Below, piece after piece: positions 16,079 to 38,586 of a stretch of DNA of 64,000 nucleotides. Where the stretch lies: contig NZ_CP139302.1 in NCBI RefSeq assembly GCF_034092375.1, forward strand, positions 1,302,001 to 1,366,000, in the 5' to 3' direction. How positions within the stretch are numbered: the stretch's first letter is position 1; every line of letters starts with the position of its first letter. Both the position numbers and the translations under genes were made by a program. The DNA is from Prochlorococcus sp. MIT 1300 (GTDB lineage: Bacteria; Cyanobacteriota; Cyanobacteriia; PCC-6307; Cyanobiaceae). The notes below the pieces were generated by a model. That model did not search any database. It had not been told where the DNA came from and worked only from the letters and a program-made list of their open reading frames with translations.

Positions 16079-16081
16079 ACC

Positions 16082-16990: not shown

Positions 16991-16994
16991 GATT

Positions 16995-17990: not shown

Positions 17991-18646
17991 TGAAACCCAC
18001 ATATTTGTCTGATAAAGGAGTGCATATCCTTAACTATTCTTCTGAGGTCAAGACTAGACCCACACACAAGGCATTATTTTTAGATAGAGATGGTGTGATA
18101 ATCGAAGATTGCCACTATATTTCCAGATCAGAGGATGTATGTCTTATTAACGGAGTTAGCCAACTTATTCTGCGAGCACAAGAGCTTAACTACGCAGTAA
18201 TAGTTGTTACTAATCAGGCTGGAATTGGCAAGGGAATATTTTCTTGGAATGATTATCTAGAAGTTAATAATAGGATGATGCACCTCTTGGAGAAAAATAT
18301 TCACATTCAACCAATTCATCTCGTTTTAGCCTGTCCCTTTCACCCTGAAGCAAATCAGAAGTGTTTTTCTCATCCCAATCATCCAATGAGAAAGCCCAAC
18401 CCAGGGATGTCCTTATTAGCTTCAGAAATATTGAATCTTGATTTACAACAATCTATTATAATAGGTGATAAAGAGTGTGATATTCAAGCGGGAATTAGAG
18501 CGAGGATGAAACTAGCAGTTCACGTTTTGACAGGCCATGGAGCTGAACATCGAAATAAGGTTACTCAACTTAACTCTGATTCTACTAAGATAGAATTAGT
18601 AAGTTCTATAGGAGATCCTATGGTGCTCAATTGGCTAGAACTTTAG
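17990..18646 (+). CDS. gmhB: D-glycero-D-manno-heptose-1,7-bisphosphate 7-phosphatase
   Basis: A 218-residue HAD-superfamily phosphatase of the HisB/GmhB type. LFLDRDGVI (29-37) holds the nucleophile and acid/base Asp residues (D32, D34). VTNQAGIGKG is motif II. CPFHPEANQKC followed by FSHPNHPMRKPNPGM replaces the Cys/His zinc loop of GmhB, with His ligands partly in place of Cys. GDKECDIQAG is motif IV. It removes the 7-phosphate to give heptose 1-phosphate. About 20 residues precede the usual GmhB start, so a later initiation is possible. It overlaps hddA by one base (TAATG). Confidence 0.9.
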   Translation: MKPTYLSDKGVHILNYSSEVKTRPTHKALFLDRDGVIIEDCHYISRSEDVCLINGVSQLILRAQELNYAVIVVTNQAGIGKGIFSWNDYLEVNNRMMHLLEKNIHIQPIHLVLACPFHPEANQKCFSHPNHPMRKPNPGMSLLASEILNLDLQQSIIIGDKECDIQAGIRARMKLAVHVLTGHGAEHRNKVTQLNSDSTKIELVSSIGDPMVLNWLEL

Positions 18647-18653
18647 AAAACCT

Positions 18654-19229
18654 ATGATGATTAACCATTATCTAGAGTATTTAACTGGTTTTCAAGAGGC
18701 TTTGACTCTTATGAAAACGAAAGAATATTCTGGATCAATCATTGAAGTAGCAGAACTCATAATAGACACTGTTAAGGAACGTAGGCCCATACTCATTTGC
18801 GGCAACGGGGGGTCTGCAGCAGACGCAAGTCACATAGCAGCCGAACTTGTATGCCGTTTTGAGAGTAATCGTGAACCCCTGAAGGCTATTTCATTAACCA
18901 CTGACACCTCATTACTTACAGCAATAGGAAATGACTTAGGTTATGAGAGAGTTTTCAGTAGGCAGGTTGAGGCTCTTGGAGAGGCAGGTGGTTTATTGTG
19001 GGTGATTTCGACAAGTGGGAAATCTCCCAATATTAAGTTAGCTATAAAGGCTGCTAAGGCTATAGGTATGAAGGTTTTACTTATGACAGGTAATAATGTT
19101 CCTCTAGAATTAGAATGCGATTACGTAATAAATGCACCTTCCCAACGAACAGCATATATTCAGGAATTACATAGACTTGTTTATCATTTTATTTGCTTAG
19201 AGGTCGAGAGGAGCCTCCCTATCAGCTAA
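18654..19229 (+). CDS. gmhA: phosphoheptose isomerase
   Basis: A 191-residue SIS-domain protein. CGNGGSAADASHIAAEL (about 45-61) is the phosphosugar-binding loop of GmhA. TSGKSPNI near 120-127 is the second SIS loop. The C-terminal helix has YIQELHRLVYHFICLEVE, which carries the catalytic His region. GmhA converts sedoheptulose 7-phosphate to D-glycero-D-manno-heptose 7-phosphate, the first step of the heptose pathway. It lies between gmhB and an SDR gene on the same strand. A paralog lies at 29406-30023 in the opposing operon. Confidence 0.93.
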   Translation: MMINHYLEYLTGFQEALTLMKTKEYSGSIIEVAELIIDTVKERRPILICGNGGSAADASHIAAELVCRFESNREPLKAISLTTDTSLLTAIGNDLGYERVFSRQVEALGEAGGLLWVISTSGKSPNIKLAIKAAKAIGMKVLLMTGNNVPLELECDYVINAPSQRTAYIQELHRLVYHFICLEVERSLPIS

Positions 19230-19253
19230 GATCTATTTACTTGAGAAAAATTT

Positions 19254-20186
19254 ATGAAGATACTAGTGACTGGTGGAGCTGGCTATTTAGGTTCTGTTTT
19301 GGTACCAGCCTTGCTGGAATCTGGCCATGCAGTTACGGTAATAGACAATTTTATGTACAAACAAAATAGTCTAGCAACTCTTTGTACTAATAAAAACTTT
19401 AATGTAATTAATGCTGATGTGAGAAATACTTCTACATTGAAATCACTTTACACTAGCCATGATGTAATCATACCTTTAGCAGCCTTAGTAGGAGCCCCAA
19501 TTTGCTCCAAAAATCCTGTAGGTGCAACGACTATTAATAAAGATGCTGTCCTTAAAATATTTGAGGTTTTAAGTAAAAATCAGATCGTACTTATGCCTAC
19601 AACAAATAGTGCTTATGGTACCGGAGATGAAAACAATTTCTGTACAGAGGAATCTCCTTTAAGGCCAATCTCTCAGTATGCTATAGACAAAGTTAATGTA
19701 GAAACCAAGCTTATGATGCTTCCTAATGCCATTAGTTTTAGGTTGGCGACAGTTTTCGGAATGGCGCCAAGAATGAGGATAGATTTGTTGGTCAATGATT
19801 TTACATATAGAGCGTTTAATGACCGAGCTCTTGTTTTGTTCGAGTCCCATTTCAAAAGAAACTATATTCATGTACGTGACGTAGCGAGAGTTTTTATACA
19901 TGCACTAAAGAATATAGATATTATGAGAGGGAATATTTATAACGTTGGTCTATCATCAGCCAACTTATCTAAACGAGAGTTGGCTGACAGAATCAAACTT
20001 CAGTTGCCTGAAACAGTTATTGTTGAACAGGCCATAGGCAGAGATCCTGACCAGCGAAACTATATTGTGTCCAATGAAAAGATTGAATCTACAGGTTTTA
20101 GTCCTAAATATGATATTGATTCTGGTATAGGCGAGTTAATTAAAGGTTATTCTATGATTAACAATTCAGTTTATTCTAATATATGA
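19254..20186 (+). CDS. SDR-family sugar-nucleotide epimerase/dehydratase
   Basis: A 310-residue extended SDR. VTGGAGYLGS (5-14) is the cofactor loop, PTTNSAYG and QYAIDK give the Ser/Thr and Tyr-x3-Lys catalytic set, and RNYIHVRDVARVF is the usual C-terminal substrate-domain motif. The sequence style (LVGAPIC near 80) is that of SDRs often found beside hddA/gmhA genes. It presumably acts on GDP-heptose or a keto derivative. It starts 24 bp after gmhA and overlaps hddC by 4 bp (ATGA), so it is part of the same operon. The reaction is inferred from neighbours. Confidence 0.75.
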   Translation: MKILVTGGAGYLGSVLVPALLESGHAVTVIDNFMYKQNSLATLCTNKNFNVINADVRNTSTLKSLYTSHDVIIPLAALVGAPICSKNPVGATTINKDAVLKIFEVLSKNQIVLMPTTNSAYGTGDENNFCTEESPLRPISQYAIDKVNVETKLMMLPNAISFRLATVFGMAPRMRIDLLVNDFTYRAFNDRALVLFESHFKRNYIHVRDVARVFIHALKNIDIMRGNIYNVGLSSANLSKRELADRIKLQLPETVIVEQAIGRDPDQRNYIVSNEKIESTGFSPKYDIDSGIGELIKGYSMINNSVYSNI

Positions 20187-20923
20187 ATATACAAAGAGAT
20201 GTCATAATCCTCTGCGGAGGATTGGGAACTCGTTTAAACTCAATCTCATTTGGAAAACAGAAATGTATTTTACAAGTGGATGGAAAGCCATTTTTAACTC
20301 ATATACTTGATTGGCTTGCCGATCAGAACTTGTTTAAGAGGGTGTTCTTGGCGACAGGTCATGGCTCTTCAGAAATTATTGATATTTTTGAATATAGTTA
20401 TAAAGGTATAACTCTAATTTATTGCAAAGAAGATGAACCTTTAGGGACTGGAGGAGCTGTGCTAAATCTTGTCAATAAATATCCACTCACACAAAAATTC
20501 TATTTAGTCAATGGAGACACATTTTCCCCTTTTCAGATCCAGCTTTTAGAGCAACCTTTTAAAAATAAAGGTTGCTCAGCAGTTTTGCACTCAGTGGTTG
20601 TGGAAGATGCTAGACGCTATGGAAGTTTGGAAATCTCGACACTTGGAAAAATCCAAAAATTTAAGGAAAAGTCAGTGCAAGCAACTCAAACAATTACAAC
20701 TATCAACGCGGGAACCTATCTTTTTGATCAATCTATATTCAAGGAGTATTGTGAAATTAAATCTACATCAAAATTCTCTCTAGAATCTAATATACTAAGT
20801 CAATTAGCAGCAGATGATAAGTTATATACAGTAACTACCAACTCAGAGTTCATTGATATAGGTATACCAGAGGATTATGAAAGATCCCATGGTTTTATTT
20901 CTAACTATTTACAGAAATCTTGA
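20183..20923 (+). CDS. hddC: D-glycero-alpha-D-manno-heptose 1-phosphate guanylyltransferase
   Basis: A 246-residue nucleotidyltransferase of the NTP_transferase family. IILCGGLGTRL (8-18) is the nucleotide-binding loop. GKQKCILQVDGKPFL replaces the usual PKPM region, and LVNGDTF carries the metal-binding Asp. HddC uses GTP to form GDP-D-glycero-alpha-D-manno-heptose from the 1-phosphate made by HddA and GmhB. That assignment rests on the complete gene set upstream; by sequence alone other sugar-1-phosphate nucleotidyltransferases are possible. It is the last gene of the operon and ends 13 bp from the convergent gene at 20937. Confidence 0.85.
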   Translation: MNIQRDVIILCGGLGTRLNSISFGKQKCILQVDGKPFLTHILDWLADQNLFKRVFLATGHGSSEIIDIFEYSYKGITLIYCKEDEPLGTGGAVLNLVNKYPLTQKFYLVNGDTFSPFQIQLLEQPFKNKGCSAVLHSVVVEDARRYGSLEISTLGKIQKFKEKSVQATQTITTINAGTYLFDQSIFKEYCEIKSTSKFSLESNILSQLAADDKLYTVTTNSEFIDIGIPEDYERSHGFISNYLQKS

Positions 20924-20936
20924 TAAGAAAAATTTT

Positions 20937-21878
20937 TTAGAATTGAACATTGCTTCCCCAAGAGTAATATTCAGTTTGCTTTAAGTAATCATTGATAGTA
21001 TTAGACCATAGAACTTCGCTAGCATTTTCTTTTTGAAGGAGTTTAGATATTATTGTAACCCATTTAATTCTGTATAAGGATACGAATATTTTTAGATTGC
21101 TACCATCGAATTGAATGTTCATTGCATTACTGGCAATTTTAATCATTTGATGAACATCTTTTTGTTTGATAATCTGGTTGGGCTGGAGTATGCAATCCGC
21201 TAATAATTTATATGGATCATCCCAACCCGCATATTCAAAATCTATATAATTTAATCCATCAGAAGTTCTCAACATATTATGTATGCCTATATCTGATGGA
21301 GATAAGATCCTGATATCATTTATGAAGCAATTACTTGTGATCAAACCTATAGCATTTAGTTGATTAATCAGTCCATTCACTATACCTTCGCATTTTTTGT
21401 ATGACTTCATTATTAAATATTTTTTGCAATCTATTAATCTAGTTTCAATCAAGTCTAAATGCTCCTTATACGTATTACATGATTCCGATGCAGCATTTAC
21501 TGGTATTTTATCTGGGTTCTCTAAATTCTGTATGCTTTTTATAAAGCCAAAAAACTCAGACCAGTCACTACAGCTTAGTTTAAGTGGCCTAGTTCCGTCT
21601 ATCCAACTAAACAAAGCCCAATTTTCTTTTGTATTCCAGCTAAGGGGTTTTGGAACTTTATATATCCCATTGTATCTGATTAATCTAAGTACATTGACTT
21701 CGGTAGTTAGCCGGGGCCTTTGATCATCTCCCTTGTTTGGATATACCTTAAAAGCATAATCTTTACCTTCGGTCTTAACATGATAAACATTGCTATTATT
21801 GCCATTTCCTACCGCTTCTATTTTATAATCATAGAATCCCATATTCTCTAGGGCATGACTAATATCTCTATTCATCAA
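20937..21878 (-). CDS. aminoglycoside/choline kinase-like phosphotransferase
   Basis: A 313-residue protein of the APH/choline-kinase fold. VGNGNNSNVYHV (about 24-35) is the Gly-rich ATP loop, and YAFKVYP has the ATP-binding Lys. SPSDIGIHNML matches the Brenner catalytic loop (Asp and Asn kept, the usual His replaced by Ser). YIDFEYAGWDDPYKLLAD holds the metal-binding Asp and the family's DP motif. It likely phosphorylates a small hydroxylated substrate such as a sugar or amino alcohol. As the last gene of the 13-gene minus operon, it may make or decorate a phosphorylated sugar. Substrate unknown. Confidence 0.7.
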   Translation of the reverse strand: MMNRDISHALENMGFYDYKIEAVGNGNNSNVYHVKTEGKDYAFKVYPNKGDDQRPRLTTEVNVLRLIRYNGIYKVPKPLSWNTKENWALFSWIDGTRPLKLSCSDWSEFFGFIKSIQNLENPDKIPVNAASESCNTYKEHLDLIETRLIDCKKYLIMKSYKKCEGIVNGLINQLNAIGLITSNCFINDIRILSPSDIGIHNMLRTSDGLNYIDFEYAGWDDPYKLLADCILQPNQIIKQKDVHQMIKIASNAMNIQFDGSNLKIFVSLYRIKWVTIISKLLQKENASEVLWSNTINDYLKQTEYYSWGSNVQF

Positions 21879-21882
21879 TTAA

Positions 21883-22476
21883 TCAGATCCAATCCTTTAG
21901 TTCCTTCCAGTCTGTCATTTGACAATATCTATCTGAACTTTTCTTTTGTAATGGATTAAAGTGTATTCGTTTTATATAAGCTGGTATTGACTCTAGAACT
22001 TGTGATAAATCATCTATAAAATGTGTGCATTTAACACCCACTATCCTTTTTACTTTCTTTTCCATTGTTGGTTCAAAGTATACATCAGATCTTGTTATTA
22101 GACCATCTGCCTCATCAAAGAAATCGTTACCTTCCAGCCACCTTGTGGCAGCCTTGTGTAAATCATACTTAGGGCCTTTATAGGGAAACTTTGTTTTGTG
22201 ACTTATAATAAACAACTGGAAGCCTTGCGACTTGGCATATTTAAGAGCACATTTTACAGTATTTGAACAAACCATATTAGCCAACTGAGAGCCGTAGACT
22301 TCCCCTTGCAAGCTCGTAAAATCATCCTCTAAGCCTTTTTGGATAAGGTGTGATCTAATATCTACTTTTGTTGGCGCTACCTCTTCCGTAATTAACTTTT
22401 TACTCAGTGCTAAATCATAAAATACTTGATCATAACTAACAAGAGTATTGTCAAAATCTAATCCTAGCCTCTTCAT
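21883..22476 (-). CDS. HAD-superfamily hydrolase
   Basis: A 197-residue HAD protein. LGLDFDNTLVSYD (4-16) has the DxDxT nucleophile motif. LFIISHKTKF is the motif II Ser/Thr region, and THFIDDLSQVLE near 152-163 gives the acidic motif IV. The cap between residues 17 and 85 is helical (C1 type). It is probably a phosphatase for a sugar phosphate made by the operon, a role matching GmhB in the neighbouring pathway, although it is not a GmhB homolog by sequence. It is joined to the transketolase C-half gene by an ATGA overlap. Confidence 0.7.
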   Translation of the reverse strand: MKRLGLDFDNTLVSYDQVFYDLALSKKLITEEVAPTKVDIRSHLIQKGLEDDFTSLQGEVYGSQLANMVCSNTVKCALKYAKSQGFQLFIISHKTKFPYKGPKYDLHKAATRWLEGNDFFDEADGLITRSDVYFEPTMEKKVKRIVGVKCTHFIDDLSQVLESIPAYIKRIHFNPLQKKSSDRYCQMTDWKELKDWI

Positions 22477-23393
22477 ATATCCATGATCTTATTGATAATC
22501 CCATTGTAGTCAATTTTGGCTAATTGTCTTGTATAGCTTTGGTCGCCTAGTTCATGGATAAATTCACTTTCACACCCAATCCTATATAGAGAGATATTGT
22601 TGGTATTGTTTGTCTCTAATAGCCATTCTAAAACTGTTGTAGCTAATCCACCGCTTTTATAATGTTCTTCAAGAACAACCCATTTATGGAAACCATTATC
22701 AATAAGATTGTTGAGAAAAAGTTCATCTAATGGCCTAACACTTCCCATCGTCGAAACACCTACATTTAGACCAGTTTCTCTAAGACTGTCGGAAGCAATT
22801 AATGCTTCATTAACAATAGGTCCTATTGAAAGTATCATCACTTCTTCACCACTCCTGACAATATTCGCTTTACCAATGCCAAGATTGTTTGACTCATTAT
22901 GTATATTTGGCTCACCCTTTTTTCCAATTCTAATATATGTGGGTCCTCCTAACTCAATTGCTTCTCGAAATTGTACTTTCAGTTGCGCACTATCCGCTGG
23001 AGCAAGTATTCTTATTCCCGGTAACGCTTTGATTATTGCTATATCCTCTAAGGAATGATGCGTGGCACCTAGTTCAGCATAGGAAAGTCCAGATCCAGTG
23101 CCTACAATTACAACAGATGCTTGATGATAAGCAACACCTATCTTTATTTGTTCCAAGCATCTAGTTGTAGTAAACGGCGTAATTGTATAAATCACAGGCT
23201 TTAGACCTGTAAGAGCCATGCCACTTGCCAAACTCATCATATTCGCTTCTGCAATGCCACAGTTGATAAACCTGTTTGGAGCAATTTCTTTAAAGCTATC
23301 AAACATCCTATTGCCAATATCACCAGATAGGAGAACAATATCTTCTCTGACTTTTGCAAGATTAGTAATTTCTTGAGCGAAAGCGTTTCTCAT
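22473..23393 (-). CDS. transketolase-like protein, C-terminal (Pyr + C) subunit
   Basis: A 306-residue protein equal to the second half of transketolase. FINCGIAEANMM (42-53) contains the Glu (E49) that activates thiamine diphosphate. The pyrimidine-binding domain runs to about 160 and the C-terminal transketolase domain from about 180 (VMILSIGPIVNEA). Together with the gene 2 bp upstream it should form an alpha2beta2 split transketolase. Split forms act in pentose metabolism in some archaea and bacteria, and related pairs make two-carbon branched or extended sugars in secondary metabolism. Its place inside a sugar-nucleotide operon argues for a dedicated glycan role and not central metabolism. 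Confidence 0.85.
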   Translation of the reverse strand: MRNAFAQEITNLAKVREDIVLLSGDIGNRMFDSFKEIAPNRFINCGIAEANMMSLASGMALTGLKPVIYTITPFTTTRCLEQIKIGVAYHQASVVIVGTGSGLSYAELGATHHSLEDIAIIKALPGIRILAPADSAQLKVQFREAIELGGPTYIRIGKKGEPNIHNESNNLGIGKANIVRSGEEVMILSIGPIVNEALIASDSLRETGLNVGVSTMGSVRPLDELFLNNLIDNGFHKWVVLEEHYKSGGLATTVLEWLLETNNTNNISLYRIGCESEFIHELGDQSYTRQLAKIDYNGIINKIMDI

Positions 23394-23395
23394 TT

Positions 23396-24238
23396 TTAGG
23401 ATAACTCCTTTAATGCTAGTTCTAATTCTTCAGTATTTGGAGTTCTGTAATGCCAATTATTGTCATCTTCCATGAATGATATTCCTTTACCCTTTATTGT
23501 ATGAGCAATGATCACACTTGGTTTTTGAGTTTCTTGTTTTGCCAGTTCAAAGCAATTTAGCAATTCACCTATATTGTGGCCGTCTACTTCTAAAGCATGC
23601 CATCCAAATGCATCCCATTTTTTTGCCAATGGATCAAGGGCCATAATGTCTTGACTTCTTCCAGTTGCTTGCCACTTGTTGAAATCTATAATTGCAGTTA
23701 ATTGAGAAGTCTTCTGTGCTGCAGCTAGTAACGCTGCTTCCCAAATACTTCCCTCATTGCATTCACCATCACTCAGCAGGGCATACGACCTAAATTTTTG
23801 ATCTGCAATTTTACTGCTTAGTGCCATTCCCAAAGCCATTGGTAAGCCATGGCCTAAAGAACCGGTCGCAGCTTCAATCCCTGGTATTAGGCCTGATTTA
23901 GGAGGGTGTTCATGAAATAAACTTCCATTCTTTCCAAATCCATTTAGTTCTTCTTTTGGGAAAAAGCCTCTTTCAGAAAGTATTTGAAGTAGTACAGGGG
24001 AAGCATGACCTTTACTTAGTAGGAATCTATCTCTACTCTTATTGTATGGATCTTTTGGATCTATATTTAATTCACTCCAATAGAGTGTTGTAAGAATCTC
24101 TATACAGGAAAGGCATGATCCTAAATGAGGTATTTTGGCTTTTGAAGATGTCCAAATAACTCTTCGCCTAATAATTGAGGCTAGTGTTCTGAGCCTTGAA
24201 ACTTTATCTGCTAAGTTACTATGTTTTATTGCGTCCAT
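23396..24238 (-). CDS. transketolase-like protein, N-terminal (thiamine diphosphate) subunit
   Basis: A 280-residue protein matching the PP domain of transketolase. KGHASP (76-81) has the substrate/TPP His. GIEAATGSLGHGLPMA (120-135) is a conserved transketolase stretch. SDGECNEG (156-163), with IIDFN ending at N187, is the metal/TPP motif, where GDG is replaced by SDG, as happens in many split forms. SVIIAHTIKGKG closes the domain. It is the partner of the gene at 22473-23393. It overlaps the upstream SDR gene by one base (TAATG), so expression is coupled to nucleotide-sugar enzymes. Confidence 0.87.
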   Translation of the reverse strand: MDAIKHSNLADKVSRLRTLASIIRRRVIWTSSKAKIPHLGSCLSCIEILTTLYWSELNIDPKDPYNKSRDRFLLSKGHASPVLLQILSERGFFPKEELNGFGKNGSLFHEHPPKSGLIPGIEAATGSLGHGLPMALGMALSSKIADQKFRSYALLSDGECNEGSIWEAALLAAAQKTSQLTAIIDFNKWQATGRSQDIMALDPLAKKWDAFGWHALEVDGHNIGELLNCFELAKQETQKPSVIIAHTIKGKGISFMEDDNNWHYRTPNTEELELALKELS

Positions 24239-25185
24239 TAATTTCCTTCAAGATTTAGATTTTTCATCCATTTAACTGTATAGCATTGATCTGTTTCTAG
24301 TAAATTTCCACTTTCGTATGCTTCACATATCTCGTCTATTGCATGTTGAATGGTTTTCTCTGGCTTGAACCCTGTATTTAAAAGTTTTGTTGAATCTTGT
24401 CGATATGAACGTGGATCATTTGATTCGGTAATAATAATTTCCGATTGTACTCGAGATGTTACTTTCTTTGCAATTTCTAATATTGATATATTTTCAAAGC
24501 CAGCGTTGTAGCATCCACTTTCTAAATGTGGATTTAAAAGAAAATGTAAATAAACATTTGCGATATCATCTATATGGATATTTGGCCTAGTTTGCATCCC
24601 TCCAAATACATTTATACGTTGATTTTTTAGTGCTTGGAAGGTCAGCATGTTTACGCTAACATCCAGTCTCATTCGTCTTGATAATCCACATACAGTTGCA
24701 GGTCGTATGCAATGAATTTGCATTTGGTCCTTATATGAAAGAAACACTCTTTCCGCGACCATCTTAGTCTTGTTATATACAGAGATAGGAATTAGGCTAA
24801 GATCTTCTGTGACTTTAGGCTCATCCTTTAATCCATACACACTTCCTGAACTAGCGAAAATGAATTGTTGAACACCTTCTCTTATAGCTTTATCCGCTAA
24901 CTGCTGGCCTGCGAGAACATTGACTTCCCAACTTAAAGTTGGGTTTAGTTCAACAGCTGGATCATTAGCAATATTTGCTAAATGTATAATTGCTTCTACT
25001 CCCTTTAGGGGGATTGAATCTACATCTCTTATATCAGCTTTTATATTCTGAAGATTTTCATGCTTCGTAAGATAGTTGCCAAACCATTCGTTGTCTACAT
25101 TAATAATTTCATGTCCCTTTTTGAGTAGGAGGGGTATGAGTACAGACCCTTTGTATCCACATCCTCCAGTTATTAGTAATTTCAT
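24238..25185 (-). CDS. SDR-family nucleotide-sugar epimerase/dehydratase
   Basis: A 315-residue extended SDR. ITGGCGYKGS (5-14) is the NAD(P) loop, although a Lys replaces the usual hydrophobic residue before the last Gly. IFASSGSVYG holds the catalytic Ser, VYNKTK provides Tyr-x3-Lys, and TRPNIHIDDIANVY is the substrate-domain motif. The ATG at 25185 overlaps the upstream stop (ATGA); a start at 25206 would add seven residues before the conserved MKLLITGG. It is likely a 4-epimerase, 4-reductase or 3,5-epimerase-type enzyme for the sugar made in this operon. Confidence 0.75.
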   Translation of the reverse strand: MKLLITGGCGYKGSVLIPLLLKKGHEIINVDNEWFGNYLTKHENLQNIKADIRDVDSIPLKGVEAIIHLANIANDPAVELNPTLSWEVNVLAGQQLADKAIREGVQQFIFASSGSVYGLKDEPKVTEDLSLIPISVYNKTKMVAERVFLSYKDQMQIHCIRPATVCGLSRRMRLDVSVNMLTFQALKNQRINVFGGMQTRPNIHIDDIANVYLHFLLNPHLESGCYNAGFENISILEIAKKVTSRVQSEIIITESNDPRSYRQDSTKLLNTGFKPEKTIQHAIDEICEAYESGNLLETDQCYTVKWMKNLNLEGN

Positions 25186-26183
25186 GACTTGTGTATATAC
25201 TCCCAAGGCTCATTAGAAAGCTGTTCAAAGTTGTTATCAATCCATGCCATAGTCTCTAGGATTCCTTGATCTAGAGATATTTTATCAGACCAATTCAGTT
25301 TACTCCTGGCAGTTTCACTATCTAATAAGTAACTTTGGTCCTTCCCCAGCCTTTCTGCTTCAACCTCTACTATTTCATTGGGTTTGACCCCAGAAATTGA
25401 GCAGATTTTGAATACCAGTTCTTTAATTGATATCTTTTTCTTAGTGGATAGATGCCAACTGCTGCCAGGCGACGCTTGAAGCATTATTTTCAAAGTCCCA
25501 TCAACAACATCTTTGATATGAATAAAAGATCTTTCGGATGAACCTCCTCCATGTAGGCGCATCTTCTTTTTACTTTTAGCGCTTAGAATTGTCTTTGGAA
25601 TGATTCGATAAAGTTGCTGGCCTGGACCATATACATTCGCTGATCTTGTAAAGACCACAGGGAATTCATAGGTTTTAAAAAAACTCATAAGATGCATATC
25701 ACATGCTGCTCTACTAACTGCGTAAGGAGTGCTTGGATTAAAATGGTTATTCTCTTTAATCCATCCATTTTCTGTGCTTCCATAAACCTCTGGAGTGGTG
25801 ACATGAACGTATTTTTGTAAGAAGGACATTTTTCTTAGTTCATCATGAAGCATCACTTGTGAGACTAAATTTGTCTGATACCAATGTTGGGGATTTGACC
25901 AACTCTCTGCGACCATACCCTGCGCCGCAAAATTCACTATAAAATTAGGTTTTACAACCTTTATTTTATCAATGAGTTCTGTTATGTCTGTATTAATATT
26001 ATATTGATCAAATGTGAATCTAGTTAAGTTATTCTTTTCCCATTTGTATGCTAAGAATGGATCGCTGGGTTCATTAGACCTGCTAACTCCCCATACTTTG
26101 TAATTTTGTTGAAGAGCATGATTAACAAAATGGCTGCCACTAAAGCTATTACTGCCAATCACCAAAATTTTATCTTGTGTCAT
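25182..26183 (-). CDS. nucleotide-sugar 4,6-dehydratase-like SDR
   Basis: A 333-residue extended SDR of the RmlB/GMD/CDP-glucose dehydratase group. VIGSNSFSG (8-16) is the cofactor loop (Ser in place of one Gly). VTTPEVYGS replaces the T-D-E-V-Y-G catalytic stretch of dTDP-glucose dehydratases, with Pro for the catalytic Asp but the Glu kept. PYAVSRAACD gives Tyr-x3-Arg instead of Tyr-x3-Lys. Both substitutions are notable. The enzyme may thus be a dehydratase with altered chemistry or an epimerase. It is encoded between the HldE-like gene and another SDR, with overlaps on both sides. Confidence 0.65.
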   Translation of the reverse strand: MTQDKILVIGSNSFSGSHFVNHALQQNYKVWGVSRSNEPSDPFLAYKWEKNNLTRFTFDQYNINTDITELIDKIKVVKPNFIVNFAAQGMVAESWSNPQHWYQTNLVSQVMLHDELRKMSFLQKYVHVTTPEVYGSTENGWIKENNHFNPSTPYAVSRAACDMHLMSFFKTYEFPVVFTRSANVYGPGQQLYRIIPKTILSAKSKKKMRLHGGGSSERSFIHIKDVVDGTLKIMLQASPGSSWHLSTKKKISIKELVFKICSISGVKPNEIVEVEAERLGKDQSYLLDSETARSKLNWSDKISLDQGILETMAWIDNNFEQLSNEPWEYIHKS

Positions 26184-27682
26184 TTTTCTAGCACTTCAAT
26201 TAAATTATTTGTTAGAACAGATTTAGCAATCGGAGTGTTTCCCATTGTTTCTACTGCAATTGATGCCATACAACATCCTATAGCAGCTGTTGCCATCATT
26301 GGCTCTCCACTCGCTAAACCTGTAGCCATTAAAGCTAGTAAGGAATCTCCTGCGCCAGCAACATCTAATGGATTTACGCACAATGCTGGAAATGCTTGTG
26401 AATCCATTTCATTAGAAGAATTTCTATCGTATGCAATAAAGCCTTCTGCGCCCAACTTCATAATTAGACGTTGACTTTCCGTTCTTCTGACTAAGTTTTT
26501 GCTAAGTATCTCTAGTCCAGTATCTTTATCTTGGAGCGCAATACGGGCCTCACGTTCATTAGGACACAATAATGAAAAGCCTTTAAATCTCATAATACTT
26601 CCAACTTGGCTACTACATTGCAAGTCTCCAAAGAGCAGTAGCTTATGCTTTTCAGCTAAAGATCTGACAGCCTCTAAGATCTTTTTAGTTACTACACCGT
26701 AGACAAAGTCTGAGATAACAATGCCGTTTACTTGAGGCGCTATTTCTTCTAGCTTATCTAAAATTTGTTGTTCTATATCTTGACTTAAGAGGTGATCTTC
26801 TAGTCTGCTAACTCTAAATAATTTTTGATTTTCAACTACATATCTTTTTTTAAAGGTAGTAGGACGACTGTTGTCTGTGACTAAGTGGTTGCCGATATTT
26901 CTTTTATTCAAATCAGCGTGTACTATTTCGGCGGTCTTGTCATTTCCTACAACTGAAATTAAATCGCACTTAGCACCAAGTGCTCTTATATGTGAGGCCA
27001 CAACTGCTGCACCTCCTATGAAGTTTTTGTGTTCGAGCTCTCTTACAACGACTACAGGTGCCTCCGCACTCATGCCAACAGCCTCGCATGCAGCATATTG
27101 ATCAATGATGGTATCCCCAAGTACAGCCAGTCTGGAATTTTGCCATGCCTCCATTGAGTTCAAGAGCTTATTCAGGTCCAGATTTTGTCTTTTACAAGCA
27201 ACTTTAAATTTCACTCGTCTATCTTTAATTAATTCTTTTTCTGATCTTGAAAGTAAATCAGTTGTAGCGTAATGTATTTCACCAGCGTGAAATTCAACTG
27301 TTTTTCCCTGACCTCTTAAAATAGAGGTTGCTTCCAATATTTCTTTATCCATAGAGTTTTCGTATTCTTTACCAAGAACAAGCAGATTGGGCATAAGTAT
27401 TTTTATCGCCTGGCTCAACTCATTATCTTGTAAAAGGATAACGGCATCCGCCATTTCAATCATGGCTAGAGCTTCAGCTCTTTCTTTTTGCTTAAATTGA
27501 TAACGTCTTTCACTTTCACCTTCCCCATCACCTATCAATGCAACAGCAAGGACATTCCCTTGGGCTTTTGCATGTTTTAAATACCGTATATGTCCAGGGT
27601 GTATAGTTGTAAAATGTCCATAGGCCAAAGTTAGATTTTCTATAGGCTTAGCGTCTTTAAGCTTGATTATTTTAGAGCTCAT
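26180..27682 (-). CDS. HldE-like bifunctional nucleotidyltransferase-kinase, domains in reversed order
   Basis: A 500-residue fusion. Residues about 15-150 are a cytidylyltransferase-like domain with GHFTTIHPGH (HxGH at 28-31). Residues about 185-500 are a PfkB/ribokinase-like domain with RLAVLGDTIIDQY, an IGGAAVVASH segment, and NPLDVAGAGDSLLA holding the catalytic Asp. In E. coli HldE the kinase comes first and the adenylyltransferase second, so here the order is inverted. By family, the kinase would phosphorylate C1 of a heptose 7-phosphate-like sugar and the other domain would form an NDP sugar. Nucleotide and sugar are inferred. It overlaps both neighbours by 4 bp. Confidence 0.82.
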   Translation of the reverse strand: MSSKIIKLKDAKPIENLTLAYGHFTTIHPGHIRYLKHAKAQGNVLAVALIGDGEGESERRYQFKQKERAEALAMIEMADAVILLQDNELSQAIKILMPNLLVLGKEYENSMDKEILEATSILRGQGKTVEFHAGEIHYATTDLLSRSEKELIKDRRVKFKVACKRQNLDLNKLLNSMEAWQNSRLAVLGDTIIDQYAACEAVGMSAEAPVVVVRELEHKNFIGGAAVVASHIRALGAKCDLISVVGNDKTAEIVHADLNKRNIGNHLVTDNSRPTTFKKRYVVENQKLFRVSRLEDHLLSQDIEQQILDKLEEIAPQVNGIVISDFVYGVVTKKILEAVRSLAEKHKLLLFGDLQCSSQVGSIMRFKGFSLLCPNEREARIALQDKDTGLEILSKNLVRRTESQRLIMKLGAEGFIAYDRNSSNEMDSQAFPALCVNPLDVAGAGDSLLALMATGLASGEPMMATAAIGCCMASIAVETMGNTPIAKSVLTNNLIEVLEK

Positions 27683-28731
27683 GTTTCTATTGTTACCCTC
27701 CCTGCTATTGAGCCATCCCTCATCTTAGCGATAGCATCATTTATGTCTTCCAGTGTGTACGACTCTCCAAGAATGCAATCTAAATTTAAAACACCTTTTT
27801 CTACCAACCTTGCTAGTTGAGGTATATCCTTGCTTGGTTGGCATTCACCCCCATGCGAGCCCACTATTGTTTTTCCAAAGTGCAAAGGGAGTGAAAATAT
27901 ATTTATCTCTTCTCCCTTTTTTGGAACACCTACTAGAATTATTCTGCCATTAGAGTGAGTGAGTTTATAGCCCATTTCAATTATTTTGGGGATACCTGTA
28001 TTGTCAACAAAGACATCTAATGCTTGGCCATTTAGTAATTTACTAATCGCCTCTTCCGGGTTCTCACTATTGCTGTTAATTACATATGTTGCACCAACCT
28101 TTTTGGCTAATTTAAGTTTATTGTTATAGATGTCTACAGCAATAATTGGCCATGCAGAACGTAATTTTGCGGCTTGTATGATATTTAACCCTATTCCCCC
28201 AGCGCCAAATACTACAATTGACTCTCCTATTTGTATCTTAGCATTGTTTTGTATTACTCCAAAACCAGTAGTTACTGCACATCCAAATAGTGCAGCGATA
28301 CTAGGTTTGATATTTTTATCTATTTTAGTACATCTATTTTCACTGATTATTGCATGAGAATTAAAGGTTGTTATCCACCCTGCATTAACTTTATTCCCCT
28401 TCCATAGATAATTAGGTGGAGGGGCTTCCATTCCCAGGCCTTTTTTCCAGTGTAAAACCACCTTGTCCCCTACTTGAATATGTTTTACACCAGCACCAAT
28501 TTCAAGAACAGTAGCGCAACCTTCATGGCCTAGTAGGTGCGGGAGGTATGGATCTGGTCCCTTGACTCCACTTATTTCCCCCAGCTGAGAACCACATATT
28601 CCACTTACGTGAATTTTTACTAATACTTGACCAGGCAGCAGTTTGTCAGGCAATAAAAGGGTATCGACAACTAATGGTTCATTTTGTGAGACCAGAATAG
28701 CGGCCTTAAACGATTTAATGCCAGACTTCAT
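27679..28731 (-). CDS. zinc-type medium-chain dehydrogenase (MDR)
   Basis: A 350-residue MDR. C46 (GICGSQ) and H69-E70 (LLGHEG) give the catalytic zinc set. VVFGAGGIGLNIIQAA is the Rossmann NAD(P) loop. The usual four-Cys structural zinc loop is absent: the corresponding stretch (GLGMEAPPPNYLWKG) has no Cys. The start at 28731 is preferred because of the AGAGG Shine-Dalgarno just upstream and the conserved SFKAAILV beginning. An in-frame ATG at 28923 would add 64 residues read antisense-style through the methyltransferase gene. It probably oxidises or reduces a sugar or polyol in the operon's pathway. Confidence 0.8.
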   Translation of the reverse strand: MKSGIKSFKAAILVSQNEPLVVDTLLLPDKLLPGQVLVKIHVSGICGSQLGEISGVKGPDPYLPHLLGHEGCATVLEIGAGVKHIQVGDKVVLHWKKGLGMEAPPPNYLWKGNKVNAGWITTFNSHAIISENRCTKIDKNIKPSIAALFGCAVTTGFGVIQNNAKIQIGESIVVFGAGGIGLNIIQAAKLRSAWPIIAVDIYNNKLKLAKKVGATYVINSNSENPEEAISKLLNGQALDVFVDNTGIPKIIEMGYKLTHSNGRIILVGVPKKGEEINIFSLPLHFGKTIVGSHGGECQPSKDIPQLARLVEKGVLNLDCILGESYTLEDINDAIAKMRDGSIAGRVTIET

Positions 28732-28741
28732 TTGCTTGCCT

Positions 28742-29413
28742 CTACTCAAAATAAATGAATGAGTGGTCTCCTGTATAGCCAGTATTTTCGAACCACCAAA
28801 GCCATTCTTTAGGTGTATGAAATGCTTCACATGTAAGTTGCCAATATAATAGGTTGGCTTTTTCTTTTTCATTCCTATAGCTTTCAACACAGATATACTT
28901 GTAATTATTACCAACTCTTTCAATCTCTTTCAGGGCTTTCTCTAGTTCGTAGGAATATAGGCAATGCAGAGTATTAATTGAGATGACCAAGTCAAAATAA
29001 TTATCCTTCCAAGGAAGCTTTGTAGCATTGCCAAGTTTTATATTATCCTTCACTTCTTCTTTGGCATGCTCTATTGCATAACTGGAGATATCTAAACCAT
29101 GTACCTCTGCATCAGGAATTACCTTTAGCCAATCATAGAGCAGATAACCTTTGCCACAGCCAATATCAAGTATTTTGGGATGCTTGGGAAGTTTAAAGTA
29201 ACTAGACATTTGTCTTGCGACTTTTTCCCATCTTCCTTCAATATATTGATATCCGCCGTAGCAGATTCGGCGGTCTCCATCCCAATAATCAAATCCCCAT
29301 CTTTTAGCTAATTCGGCTGCTTTTTCTTTAGGGTAAATAGGATCATTTACTCGTCCTAAATAATCTCTATTTGTGCTTTTATGAAGCACACTCATGAAAT
29401 CAACTTCAGACAT
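28742..29413 (-). CDS. class I SAM-dependent methyltransferase
   Basis: A 223-residue methyltransferase. ILDIGCGKGYLL (near 76-87) is motif I for SAM binding. VHGLDIS carries the acidic ribose-binding residue, GNATKLPW follows, and YFDLVISINTLHCL is motif IV. No membrane segment is present, so a soluble small-molecule or sugar methyltransferase is likely. O- or N-methylation of the operon's sugar is the simple reading. The start at 29413 overlaps the upstream SIS gene by 8 bp; a second ATG at 29395 is possible. Confidence 0.75.
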   Translation of the reverse strand: MSEVDFMSVLHKSTNRDYLGRVNDPIYPKEKAAELAKRWGFDYWDGDRRICYGGYQYIEGRWEKVARQMSSYFKLPKHPKILDIGCGKGYLLYDWLKVIPDAEVHGLDISSYAIEHAKEEVKDNIKLGNATKLPWKDNYFDLVISINTLHCLYSYELEKALKEIERVGNNYKYICVESYRNEKEKANLLYWQLTCEAFHTPKEWLWWFENTGYTGDHSFIYFE

Positions 29414-30023
29414 TCAAATTCTCCAAAGCTTTCGGCTTGTTTGTGTTGAGCCATTGCATACAGAGATGACCAACAATTAGCTGGCTATCTTCAGCAATTT
29501 GCATGTCATTTATGCCAAGATGTATGGCCACACTGGCAAGATTTAGGCACTTTCCGCCATCGAATGCAACAATTGCATATGTTTTTAGACTTAATTTATT
29601 AGCAATTTCTAAAGCCTTAACTACATTAGCCGAGTTTCCACTTCCTGAGAGGACAATCAAAAGATCTTTAGGATTACCTTTGACCTCTATTTGATTTGCG
29701 TAGATATTTTCATAGCCTGTGTCATTGGCTAAACATGTTATTAATCCTGTATTAGCGGATAAGGCTTCTACCTTTAAGCCAGAAATTTTTGGTGCAGGTC
29801 CACAGGCTCCGATGCCGTAGTGCAGATCATTCGCCATGTGTATTGCATTAGCTGCACTTCCTCCATTACCGCAGATAAAGACATTGCGGCCTTCAACCCA
29901 TGTGGCTAAAAGATCATGTGAAAGATTCTCTATTCCTTTAATTACATTTTCACTAAAGCAACCTACTAATTGCTTTAAATAAAAACTTGTAGAGTCTTTA
30001 AAATTCGAGGAAGAGTTATTCAT
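29406..30023 (-). CDS. SIS-domain phosphosugar isomerase, GmhA-like
   Basis: A 205-residue SIS protein similar in plan to GmhA. CGNGGSAANAIHMANDL (about 50-66) is the phosphosugar loop. LSGSGNSANVVKAL near 120-133 is the second SIS loop, and a C-terminal QLIVGHLCMQWL helix follows. It is a distant paralog of gmhA at 18654-19229. It most likely isomerises a ketose phosphate (sedoheptulose 7-phosphate or a related transketolase product) to the aldose. It shares TAATG with the upstream nucleotidyltransferase gene, so expression is coupled. Confidence 0.8.
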   Translation of the reverse strand: MNNSSSNFKDSTSFYLKQLVGCFSENVIKGIENLSHDLLATWVEGRNVFICGNGGSAANAIHMANDLHYGIGACGPAPKISGLKVEALSANTGLITCLANDTGYENIYANQIEVKGNPKDLLIVLSGSGNSANVVKALEIANKLSLKTYAIVAFDGGKCLNLASVAIHLGINDMQIAEDSQLIVGHLCMQWLNTNKPKALENLNV

Positions 30024-30763
30024 TAATTATCTCCCAAAGATTGTGAGAAAAGTTTTTGTGCCTCCTGCAGTGACTCAGATGTCCCTATATCTAAATACGG
30101 GGCAGTGGTATGCCATGTTTGTATTCTACCTTTCAGCTGAGGAATTATTTCCATACTGAAATCTTCTACACCAGTCGGAAGCTTCGCCAGCCAATCTAGA
30201 AAGGGTTTGTCAAATAGGTAGATTGCCCCGTTGGCACAATTCCCTGGTGGATTAGGAACTTTCTCATGAAACTCTTGCATGACACCATTGGAGTCAGTTA
30301 CCACAATGCCGCAATTTCTAGGACTTGAGGTTTTAAATGTAAGCATAGTTAGTAAGCACTCCTTAGGCTTCTTGCTATGTGCTTTTATTAGATTCCCCAG
30401 ATTTGCTGATGTGATGTTGTCTGCATGGATTAAGAGGCCTGTTGAGTTTTCAAAGAAGTCTCGATTAGCAAGCATTGTTCCTGCTGTACCGAGTAACGTT
30501 GTTTCATGTACTGTTTTCAAAGACATGGATGATTGGGGCCAGTCTTGAATAAAACTGTTCACCTGCTCAGAAAGATAGTGGGTGTTTACTAGGCAAGATT
30601 CACAACCGAGTGCTTCTAGGTTTAAAAGCCACCGTTGAAGTAAGGGTGTATGACCTATTTTGACTAGGCATTTAGGTGTGCTTAATGTAAGAGGCCTTAA
30701 TCTTGTGCCATACCCAGCAGCCAACAAAAGAGCTCTTAATCTAATCTTATTAGTATTTTTCAC
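30023..30763 (-). CDS. sugar-1-phosphate nucleotidyltransferase (HddC/RmlA/MurU-like)
   Basis: A 246-residue NTP transferase. LLLAAGYGTRLRPLT (near 11-25) is the nucleotide loop and TPKCLVKIGHTPLL carries the conserved P-K-[PC]-L. LIHADNI has the metal-binding Asp. It resembles HddC and MurU in length and lacks an allosteric C-terminal domain. The start is GTG, overlapping the previous stop as TAGTG. Working with the SIS isomerase and the HldE-like kinase, it could form the NDP sugar. Two nucleotidyltransferase activities in one operon (this and the HldE-like N-domain) suggest either two products or one inactive domain. Confidence 0.78.
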   Translation of the reverse strand: MKNTNKIRLRALLLAAGYGTRLRPLTLSTPKCLVKIGHTPLLQRWLLNLEALGCESCLVNTHYLSEQVNSFIQDWPQSSMSLKTVHETTLLGTAGTMLANRDFFENSTGLLIHADNITSANLGNLIKAHSKKPKECLLTMLTFKTSSPRNCGIVVTDSNGVMQEFHEKVPNPPGNCANGAIYLFDKPFLDWLAKLPTGVEDFSMEIIPQLKGRIQTWHTTAPYLDIGTSESLQEAQKLFSQSLGDN

Positions 30764-31980
30764 TAGAATTCTATTTTTTCAAGGATTAGATCTGCTAGGG
30801 CAAAACTTGCTGTGAAGGCAGGAGAAATGCAGTTCATAATGTGTGTACTGTTTCTGCCTGATAAGCAAATGAAATCATCTTCTAGCCTATGCGATTTTTG
30901 ATTAAATAACTGTGAACGTATACCAACCTTTTTGCTTATTTGAATGTGATTATACTCTATTTTGGGAATTAATTCTTGAGCAGATTTGATTAGAAAATGT
31001 GGAATGGAAAGAAATGATTGTTCATGTACATACTTGCGAAAACCACCTCTATTGTTGATATATTGATTGGATAAAAGCGCAAGGTTTTGTATCGCCGACC
31101 AAGGCTCTATGCCTTCCAGTCCATAATAATTTTCTCGCCCCAATGCTGGTGTAGCAGTTGGTCCAATACTTATTTTTGGTTTAAGATCTGCGCTTGGAGT
31201 GAAATGGACTCCTAAGAATGGAACATTGAGATCTGGTACTGGATATAAATTGCATTTGGGCTGTATAGAACATTGCTCTTTGATTTCCCAGTAAAGGCCT
31301 TTGAATGGTAATAACCGATAATTTAAGCCTACCTCAAATTTATGAGCCACCTTGTCAGCTTGAAGACCGCTACAATTTATAAGGTGTGAATAGTGTAATT
31401 TTGTACCATCATTGAGTATGACTTGTTGTTCGTTTGGAATTGGGTTCCAATTTGTTTGACCTTTTATAAATTTTACTCCTTTCTTTCGCAACTCTGACTC
31501 TAGAGATTGAACTACAAGTATTGGTTTGACGACACATGTATTTGGACTCCATAGCGCTCTGCCAGTAGCAGTTCTTGCTTCAGGGAGGTGAGAATAAAGT
31601 TGTTTTTCATCCCATATCTCTATCGTGGCTCCATTAGCAACACCTCGAGTTGCAAGAACATCTAGTTGGTCATCAAGATGCTCCTTTTGAGGAACAATGA
31701 CTTTGCCACATTTGTTGATTGGCAGGCCTCTGTCTTCGACCCATCGCCGCAATCTTTTGGCTCCTTCGACACATACCTTGGCTTTAATTGTTCCTGGCTG
31801 ATAGTAAAGTCCAGCGTGCAAGACGCCGCTATTCCTGCCAGAGCTATGTAGTCCTATGTCTAACTCTTTTTCAACTATTATTATGCTCTTAGTAATTTTT
31901 TTTTCTAGCAATTGATTGGCTAATGATAGCCCTACCATGCCACCTCCGATTATAATTACATCTCCAATATTTTCTTTCAT
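30763..31980 (-). CDS. LhgO-like FAD-dependent oxidoreductase
   Basis: A 405-residue FAD enzyme of the DAO superfamily. IIIGGGMVGLSLANQLL (9-25) is the dinucleotide-binding motif (GxGxxG at 12-17). SSGRNSGVLHAGLYYQPGTIKAK is the signature stretch of L-2-hydroxyglutarate oxidase (LhgO). A C-terminal GRNSTHIMNCISPAFTASFAL segment is the usual FAD-closing part. In a sugar operon the substrate may be a hydroxy acid or a sugar acid, not necessarily 2-hydroxyglutarate. The ATG at 31980 overlaps the GT4 stop (ATGA); an upstream start at 32019 would read into that gene. Confidence 0.78.
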   Translation of the reverse strand: MKENIGDVIIIGGGMVGLSLANQLLEKKITKSIIIVEKELDIGLHSSGRNSGVLHAGLYYQPGTIKAKVCVEGAKRLRRWVEDRGLPINKCGKVIVPQKEHLDDQLDVLATRGVANGATIEIWDEKQLYSHLPEARTATGRALWSPNTCVVKPILVVQSLESELRKKGVKFIKGQTNWNPIPNEQQVILNDGTKLHYSHLINCSGLQADKVAHKFEVGLNYRLLPFKGLYWEIKEQCSIQPKCNLYPVPDLNVPFLGVHFTPSADLKPKISIGPTATPALGRENYYGLEGIEPWSAIQNLALLSNQYINNRGGFRKYVHEQSFLSIPHFLIKSAQELIPKIEYNHIQISKKVGIRSQLFNQKSHRLEDDFICLSGRNSTHIMNCISPAFTASFALADLILEKIEF

Positions 31981-33173
31981 GATGAATAGCTGGAGAAGAT
32001 AGATTGTAGCTGAAGACAACTATTCTTAACGCTAAAAAATTCATTAACTTGAAGTTTTCCTGCTTGGCTTACCTTCTCTAATAACTTTGGATCTTGAATC
32101 AGCATTTTAAGTTTATTGGCTAAATCTCTTGAATCGCCTGGGTTGAAAATCAACCCTGTCTTGCCATCTTCGACTAGTTCTGAGGCTCCTCCAACACCCG
32201 ATGTTATTAGGAGAAGACCGCTTGCTTGCATCTCAGCCCCTACTATTCCAAAAGCTTCTGGGTAAATGGAGGGGAAGATGCCGACTCTATGGAGTATGAG
32301 CATTCTCGCGAGTTGTTCTCGATTTAGGTTTCCCGTAAAAATCACTATATCTTCTAACCCTGCTTTTCTTAGTAAGCCCTCCAGCGCTTCACGATAGCCA
32401 CTCTGGAAAGAAGCTCCTGCAATCATCCCGTTGACGTAAACCCCACTTTCTTTCAAGCCTATTAGGGCTTCAACAACTGTGTGGGCGCCTTTGCTGCCCA
32501 TAAGTAAACCTGCAAAGCAGACGCTTAACGGGTTGGTAGATGTTCCTAATTGAGCTTGCTTGCCTTGAGAAAAGGTGTTAATTGGTGGCAAATTTCTTCT
32601 TAAAGACTCTTCGCCAAATAACTCAACTCTTGCTCCTGGATAGATTACAGGTTCATTACTAATTGGAAACCCCTCTCTGATCATTGAACTCTTTACTGCT
32701 TGACTTGCACATACCATCTTGTAGTTTTTTTCAGTTGGGTAACTATGTATTGGGTAAGGTGCTGAGATAAAGCCTATATGATGCACAATGGGTAGTTTGG
32801 TTTTTATTAATACTGAAAGAATTTCTGGTCCAATTAAATCTAGATTTCCAAGCAGGATCCCGTCGAATTTTTGTTCTCTAATAATTTCTTTTAGCTTCTC
32901 ATTGTTCCATTGATTTATTGAATTTATTTTATTTGCATCCTTTAAAAAGTTAAGCCCGTTTTCGAAAGTGCCTTTTAGAATGAGTTTTCGTTCGATTATT
33001 TCCCCGCTTGGGCTAGGTCCTTGTGGGCCCAAGTAGGCCGCATCGGAACTTGCCACTACTATTTGATAGCCAAGTCGCATCAAGCCCCACGCAAAGTCAG
33101 CCATACATCGCCCGTACCCACCAAGTTCTTGTGGTGGGTAGAGGTTGGTAACGATCAGAATCCTTTTAGCCAT
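31977..33173 (-). CDS. GT4 family glycosyltransferase
   Basis: A 398-residue GT4 protein. ILIVTNLYPPQELGGYGR (4-21) is the N-terminal acceptor-domain start with the conserved Gly-Gly. CFAGLLMGSKGAHTVVEAL (near 228-246) opens the donor domain, and PEAFGIVGAEMQASGLLL is the E-x7-E region. It is the first gene of the 13-gene minus operon, so it is the best candidate for the transferase that uses the operon's special sugar. The start ATG (33173) is back-to-back with the plus-strand gene at 33182, only 8 bp apart, so the promoter lies inside that gene or close to it. Confidence 0.85.
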   Translation of the reverse strand: MAKRILIVTNLYPPQELGGYGRCMADFAWGLMRLGYQIVVASSDAAYLGPQGPSPSGEIIERKLILKGTFENGLNFLKDANKINSINQWNNEKLKEIIREQKFDGILLGNLDLIGPEILSVLIKTKLPIVHHIGFISAPYPIHSYPTEKNYKMVCASQAVKSSMIREGFPISNEPVIYPGARVELFGEESLRRNLPPINTFSQGKQAQLGTSTNPLSVCFAGLLMGSKGAHTVVEALIGLKESGVYVNGMIAGASFQSGYREALEGLLRKAGLEDIVIFTGNLNREQLARMLILHRVGIFPSIYPEAFGIVGAEMQASGLLLITSGVGGASELVEDGKTGLIFNPGDSRDLANKLKMLIQDPKLLEKVSQAGKLQVNEFFSVKNSCLQLQSIFSSYSS

Positions 33174-38572: not shown

Positions 38573-38586
38573 GTCTTTAATAATTG

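Follow-up and report, generated by a model that had tools for sequence, protein, structure and literature searches.

A split-transketolase operon in a Prochlorococcus glycan island as a candidate route to a surface sugar with an added two-carbon unit

Enzymes dependent on thiamine diphosphate (ThDP) introduce two-carbon branches into a few sugars, and these are the closest described systems to the operon considered here, a set of 13 genes at positions 20937-33173 on the minus strand of a stretch of the Prochlorococcus sp. MIT 1300 genome (contig NZ_CP139302.1, positions 1,302,001 to 1,366,000; these 64,000 nucleotides are hereafter called the window). E1-type enzymes add acetyl C2 branches to keto-sugars in the biosynthesis of aldgamycin, paulomycin and others (PMC4425429, PMC12247030), and split transketolases (TKs) were proposed to add a hydroxyacetyl unit in miharamycin and amipurimycin (PMC12247030). 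A review of 2025 counted 13 putative ketone-accepting transketolases, all from Streptomycetes and none characterised in vitro (PMC12247030). We found no account of the present gene set in the open literature, where only that review of ThDP enzymes and the papers on paulomycin bore directly on it.

The miharamycin and amipurimycin systems, to which we liken the operon by description, likewise combine a split transketolase with a dedicated oxidoreductase, for a proposed hydroxyacetyl transfer to a keto-sugar. They are however Streptomyces antibiotic clusters, whereas the present genes lie in polysaccharide islands of many phyla, together with SIS, HldE, LhgO, MT and MDR genes (names as in the list below). 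Enzymes of the alphaKADH2 (PDH-E1-like) type, such as AviB1/AviB2 of avilamycin, Pau11/Pau12 of paulomycin and those of aldgamycin and kibdelomycin, also catalyse a ThDP-dependent C2 addition to a keto-sugar, and an E1-type enzyme occupies the corresponding slot in sister clusters of the operon; the window has instead the transketolase type, which would imply glycoloyl and not acetyl transfer. YerE also forms a two-carbon branch on an activated 4-keto-sugar (yersiniose, in lipopolysaccharide), but it is a decarboxylase-family ThDP enzyme, of another superfamily than the operon transketolase. The guanosine diphosphate (GDP)-heptose modification of Campylobacter jejuni (Cj1427, PMC10680097) resembles the window by its Cj1427-like dehydrogenases, SDR1 and an SDR encoded on the plus strand, and by its GmhA/GmhB/kinase/nucleotidyltransferase logic, whereas the operon has a fused HldE-like enzyme in place of HddA and HddC. 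The nearest solved relative of both transketolase halves is the split transketolase of Carboxydothermus hydrogenoformans (6yaj/6yak), which keeps the phosphate-binding residues lost in the operon enzyme. To our knowledge, the Cj1427 pathway includes no ThDP enzyme, LhgO or MDR.

We consider it reasonably probable that the 13 genes specify a full route to a nucleotide-activated surface sugar, to which the ThDP enzyme adds a two-carbon (glycoloyl) unit at a late stage. As judged from sequence comparisons, the most likely substrate of the transketolase is the activated sugar, late in the route, and not sugar phosphates at an early step.

The operon and its exchangeable ThDP enzyme

A sequence-only reading of the window had described 13 minus-strand genes separated by at most about 10 bp. 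All 13 open reading frames were confirmed, tightly packed, with 12 junctions of -4, -1, -1, -8, +10, -4, -4, -4, -1, +2, -4 and +4 bp (maximum gap 10 bp), and the family labels of that reading agree with Pfam and NCBIfam-type searches, except that HAD, for which no Pfam or NCBIfam match was found, is recognised by its motifs only. The starts of LhgO and MDR are probably internal ATGs (31980 and 28731) and not upstream TTGs, and promoter and terminator scans gave no excess of sites over shuffled sequences. The genes are the following:

20937..21878, minus strand: APH, aminoglycoside-phosphotransferase-like small-molecule kinase (PF01636, 2.4e-9; SPSD(x)4N...DFE motif kept among homologues)
21883..22476, minus strand: HAD-type phosphatase (DxDNT and a later DD motif, in the window sequence and in homologues)
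22473..23393, minus strand: TKC, C-terminal half of a split transketolase with an altered phosphate site (PF02779, PF02780; top PDB match 6yaj)
23396..24238, minus strand: TKN, N-terminal ThDP-binding half of the split transketolase (PF00456, 1.4e-36; top PDB match 6yak, 1.3e-74)
24238..25185, minus strand: SDR1, Cj1427-like sugar-nucleotide dehydrogenase, extended SDR (top PDB match 6vo6/6vo8, 1.4e-35; RMRLDxxVN block in common)
25182..26183, minus strand: SDR2, RmlB-like extended SDR (PF16363/PF01370; TPE in place of TDE)
26180..27682, minus strand: HldE-like fusion of an N-terminal nucleotidyltransferase and a C-terminal PfkB kinase (PF01467, CTP_transf_like; PF00294)
27679..28731, minus strand: MDR, zinc-type dehydrogenase (PF00107, PF08240)
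28742..29413, minus strand: MT, conserved class I S-adenosylmethionine (SAM) methyltransferase that marks the module (58% identical in a distant cyanobacterium; occurs across phyla)
29406..30023, minus strand: SIS, GmhA-like isomerase (PF13580, SIS_2; aligns with GmhA structures)
30023..30763, minus strand: NTP, sugar-1-phosphate nucleotidyltransferase (PF00483, 3.2e-33)
30763..31980, minus strand: LhgO-like flavin adenine dinucleotide (FAD) oxidase, predicted L-2-hydroxyglutarate recycler (PF01266, DAO; NF008726, 273.9 bits)
31977..33173, minus strand: GT4 glycosyltransferase (PF00534)

By their profile scores, several of these proteins are related to the GmhA, HldE and LhgO families without belonging to them. 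SIS stays under the cut-off of the GmhA equivalog TIGR00441 (102.6 vs 209 bits) and is thus GmhA-like only, the LhgO-like protein lies just under that of the NF008726 equivalog (299 bits) and is not a filed member, and the HldE models are not reached (TIGR02198, 200.8 vs a cut-off of 345 bits; TIGR02199, 60.4 vs 181.5). The HldE-like protein places its nucleotidyltransferase (residues 19-115) before its kinase (184-483), the opposite of the domain order of Escherichia coli HldE, where the kinase comes first. SDR2 lacks the TDE motif of RmlB-type 4,6-dehydratases and reads TTPEVYG in the window, with TPE in relatives too.

A survey of 151 genomes belonging to the family of this Prochlorococcus gave a TKN homologue in 15, the HldE-like gene in 18, SDR1 in 16 and LhgO in 23. 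Eight of the TKNs are close orthologues, namely that of the window and seven that are 62-69% identical to it. The usual order in relatives is GmhB-LhgO-NTP-SIS-MT-MDR-HldE-SDR2-SDR1, followed by the ThDP part, which is of two types. TKN-TKC-HAD-APH follows SDR1 in eight operons of near-identical order (the window, L015, L140, L141, L143, L144, L146 and L147), while a ThDP enzyme of the pyruvate-dehydrogenase E1-alpha/beta type is found in seven clusters, all with the SIS/HldE/NTP core: directly behind SDR1 and either split or fused in five (L139, L142, L145, L016 and L017), and as a pair elsewhere in the cluster in two (L148 and L149). L016 combines its E1-type gene with a more distant TK pair downstream. 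HAD occurs in 8/8 TK-type operons and 0/7 E1-type clusters, and APH in 6/8 and 0/7, respectively; L141 has no recognised APH, and L144 ends at a contig edge. Further E1-type genes were present elsewhere in all five searched genomes carrying E1-type clusters. In trees of the core genes the two types are intermixed, and the starred branches require at least two changes.

The relatives therefore keep the set, in line with the dedicated pathway and joint conservation that had been proposed for these genes. L143 carries all 13 genes in the order of the window, with GmhB added between LhgO and GT4; the window operon has no GmhB at that spot, where LhgO and GT4 overlap instead. A GT4 homologue (49-50% identity) stands beside GmhB at the operon head in L139 and L143, so that the glycosyltransferase taken to be the operon's own does travel with it in these two relatives. 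Because the slot behind SDR1 takes either a transketolase or an E1-type enzyme, we place the ThDP step after the SDR1 oxidation. TKN adjoins SDR1, by homology the maker of an activated keto-sugar, an arrangement that resembles the clustering of ThDP-dependent ketone-accepting branching enzymes.

The active site of the split transketolase

Residues were mapped by alignment onto the numbering of human transketolase, and their roles are presumably those generally attributed to them in the family. TKN keeps the catalytic His and the Mg-binding residues, and thereby the ThDP/Mg site of a pentose-phosphate transketolase. In the window TKC, H416 is replaced by G, D424 by L, S345 by R and R474 by K, with R318 and the catalytic E366 kept; R318 is thus the only one left of the sugar-phosphate-binding set of the pentose-phosphate enzyme (human R318, S345, H416 and R474). 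Such a pocket recurs among the island TKCs, with Gly at position 416 in 41 of 42, Lys at position 474 in 37 of 42, and the catalytic Glu in all 40 that span it. Gly at 416 is absent from the controls, namely two reference enzymes (human TK and the split TK of Carboxydothermus) and nine split TKs borne on plasmids, where this position is H, S, L or N and position 474 mostly R; several of the plasmid-borne enzymes adjoin sugar-transport or sugar-kinase genes. The Gly/Lys combination was found in island TKCs only and in none of the controls. The single exception at position 416 is the second, canonical-looking TK of L159. This locus, a glycan cluster on plasmid pDCAR1 of Solidesulfovibrio carbinolicus, encodes two TKCs, one with the Gly/Lys pocket beside an MT and a radical SAM gene and the other canonical.

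The rebuilt pocket argues against ordinary pentose-phosphate substrates, but does not by itself specify the acceptor. It bears directly on the early role that the sequence-only reading had given to the transketolase, namely that the split TK makes a heptulose or octulose phosphate which SIS isomerises and HldE and NTP activate. Every family required for this is present within one operon, HldE lies within 10 kb in 26/39 TK loci (family members included) and all catalytic His residues are intact in TKN. Yet, in addition to the substituted phosphate-binding residues, the SIS/HldE/NTP core also occurs with an E1-type enzyme, or, in L018 and L019, with neither a TKN/TKC pair nor an E1-type enzyme in the stretch read, the TK/MT module is found without SIS or HldE (e.g., L027, L045, L057 and L058), and the host genome (1.855 Mb, one contig) also encodes a full-length transketolase (L002). 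On these grounds, a transketolase that builds ketose phosphates for SIS appears distinctly unlikely, and this part of the earlier proposal finds no support.

Linkage across phyla and the variable redox enzyme

The search for conserved linkage proposed along with the first reading shows that it extends far outside the window. The split TKN/TKC pair adjoins this same MT in bacteria of at least nine phyla, and also in archaea. The loci of the MT scan bear the labels Chloroflexota (SAR202, Anaerolineales), Marinimicrobia, Pseudomonadota, Verrucomicrobiota (Akkermansia), Elusimicrobia, Desulfobacterota/Geobacteraceae, Lachnospiraceae, Actinomycetota and Cyanobacteria, as well as Methanoregula and Nanoarchaeota among archaea, many of these records being metagenome-assembled genomes whose taxon labels may carry binning errors. 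In the 33 MT loci longer than 9 kb, TKN lies near MT in 26, TKC in 26, SDR1 in 18, MDR in 18, HAD in 16 and HldE in 16, compared to a split pair in 1/42 control loci with weak methyltransferase similarity only; as the loci are related by descent and transfer, they should not be counted as independent observations. Where a TKN match fell near a weak methyltransferase match in Streptomyces, the locus was discarded, as it proved to encode a long single-frame transketolase. A plasmid search yielded one plasmid with an MT, TK and radical-SAM set. Transketolase N halves 41-46% identical to TKN were also seen in OR849068.1, MT837313.1 and other records labelled as Listeria phage or human-gut bacteriophage, which could be host DNA.

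These patterns leave little room for an ordinary variable polysaccharide island whose adjacent genes make several separate sugars. As a glycan island, the window does have numerous glycosyltransferase-like genes and another sugar set, and such islands shuffle their genes; however, a single gene set in near-same order in eight picocyanobacterial genomes, and the linkage of TK, HAD, APH, MT, MDR and SDR1 across phyla against its near-absence in control loci, make this explanation highly improbable.

The 39 TK loci include MDR in 21, a family designated u9 in 13 and a radical SAM protein in 6; MDR and u9 overlap in none, and 38/39 carry at least one of the three. Members of u9 (e.g., L031:3199-3996 and L015:12264-13079) gave no Pfam match at 1e-5 in the two first tried, but a Fe(II)/2-oxoglutarate-oxygenase-like fold is predicted with moderate confidence (pLDDT 82), the top Foldseek matches include ThoJ, SnoN, PtlH and HygX, and the PhyH and 2OG-FeII_Oxy profiles match weakly. 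MDR, the putative 2-oxoglutarate oxygenase u9 and radical-SAM proteins thus appear to replace each other in the module; since these swap while MT and the ThDP enzyme stay, the redox enzyme is its variable part, and MT and the ThDP enzyme its constant part. Reduction of a side-chain ketone by MDR would follow, by analogy, the paulomycose proposal, whereas the exchange with an oxygenase or a radical SAM protein suggests oxidation.

An oxidation could also prepare a late chain extension, the main late alternative, in which MDR, the oxygenase or the radical SAM protein converts a terminal CH2OH of the activated sugar into an aldehyde; two carbons joined to it by the transketolase would yield a higher sugar without a branch. 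The usual acceptors of transketolases are aldehydes, and all three redox enzymes, at least one of which is nearly always present, can oxidise alcohols. On the other hand, the exchange partner of the transketolase is an E1-type enzyme, a type described in sugar biosynthesis as forming branches at ring ketones, and SDR1 resembles a C4 dehydrogenase, which renders such an extension rather doubtful.

Proposed pathway and surroundings

The closest solved structures to SDR1 are 6vo6 and 6vo8, which we take to be those of Cj1427, with an RMRLD block common to both proteins. The Cj1427 dehydrogenase requires 2-oxoglutarate and yields L-2-hydroxyglutarate (PMC10680097), and an LhgO-like oxidase would thereby gain a task beside a Cj1427-like SDR1. 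LhgO accompanies SDR1 in 14/16 SDR1 genomes. In L151, LhgO is found without SDR1, among GDP-heptose genes and a homologue (66%) of the Cj1427-like SDR of the window plus strand. The LhgO-like gene of this locus (genome G293) is in two pieces (68% and 52%), possibly due to a frameshift, in a cluster with the Cj1427-like gene, HddA, GmhB and HddC.

In the favoured route, SIS, the HldE-like kinase, a GmhB phosphatase and either NTP or the HldE nucleotidyltransferase domain would produce a nucleoside diphosphate (NDP)-sugar, probably of heptose type; GmhB has gone from the window operon, and the plus-strand copy may substitute. SDR1 would then oxidise the NDP-sugar to a keto-sugar, passing electrons to 2-oxoglutarate, and LhgO would re-oxidise the resulting L-2-hydroxyglutarate. 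The split transketolase would move a glycoloyl unit onto the carbonyl of the keto-sugar; a ring ketone is the likeliest site and would lead to a branched sugar, the alternative being an aldehyde, with chain extension. MDR may act on an alcohol or ketone to tune its redox state, MT would methylate, and GT4 would transfer the finished sugar. More speculatively, HAD may make an unphosphorylated ketose donor and APH re-phosphorylate the leftover aldose, which would account for the association of both with the picocyanobacterial transketolase. What is observed is the gene content, the linkage across phyla, the signature of the active site and the TK/E1 exchange, whereas we infer each catalytic step and the product. 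Activation through isomerase, kinase and nucleotidyltransferase, as first suggested, is supported. Regarding the modified heptose or octose then envisaged as product, a heptose-type backbone is plausible, considering the GmhA-, HldE- and GmhB-like genes and the Cj1427-like SDR, and the data also fit an octose or nonose resulting from two-carbon addition at a late stage.

Several points weigh against this route. The kinship of SDR1 with Cj1427 is distant (about 126 bits), and outside cyanobacteria LhgO is linked to the module in one locus (L033). Some catabolic split TKs are also without the phosphate His, so that its loss alone is no proof of a ketone acceptor. The apparently interchangeable redox enzymes share oxidation and not side-chain reduction, which would fit aldehyde formation and chain extension equally well. 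The roles given to HAD and APH are guesses, and either NTP or the HldE domain may be the nucleotidyltransferase of the route. The gene set itself is apparently uncharacterised, and the nearest known kind of system is ThDP-dependent sugar branching.

The operon converges with a second sugar set, whose last gene (HddC-like) stops 14 bp from the operon end:

16995..20923, plus strand: GDP-heptose-type set of five genes, Campylobacter-type (HddA, GmhB, GmhA, Cj1427-like SDR and HddC; 6vo6, 1e-109 for the SDR)

Its GmhB is the sole GmhB homologue found in the genome, but was rejected as the operon's own orthologue, with about 45% identity to the L015 copy vs mostly about 60-70% for other operon genes. 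The whole set at 14870-20923 (plus strand), with a C-methyltransferase (Methyltransf_13/14), an SDR and HddA-, GmhB-, GmhA-, Cj1427- and HddC-like genes, suggests a C-methylated GDP-4-keto-heptose derivative. Elsewhere in the window, a glycine/aspartate-rich repeat protein of 914 aa (35779-38523, plus strand), together with an HlyD-like protein and an ABC exporter whose N-terminal region is cyclic-nucleotide-binding-like (45409-49708, plus strand), looks like a type I secretion set, and two large TPR-type proteins encoded on opposite strands at 38584-42928, with slightly overlapping ends, resemble SPINDLY/OGT-type glycosyltransferases. At 402-694 kb, the host genome encodes six CP43-like genes beyond the psbB-/psbC-like pair, as in low-light Prochlorococcus; together with the photosystem II genes present and the genome size, these copies suggest an organism of that kind.

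It is quite possible, though we propose it tentatively, that the split TKs of the H416G/R474K type form a wide family in bacteria and archaea, whose acceptors are keto-sugar nucleotides and whose products are glycoloyl-branched surface sugars, with LhgO cycling electrons via L-2-hydroxyglutarate in picocyanobacteria. Ketone-accepting transketolases are an acknowledged gap, for which the island loci give dozens of candidates from many phyla, cultured genera among them, and the residue signature, with natural E1-type counterparts on the same scaffold, makes the question of the ketone acceptor directly testable. The proposal also offers a reason for the presence of an L-2-hydroxyglutarate-oxidase-like gene in glycan islands. 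If true, the sugars made by abundant marine bacteria would include branched or higher ones of which we know no chemical description, and the split transketolases would represent a third class of sugar-branching enzymes, exchangeable for those of the E1 type.

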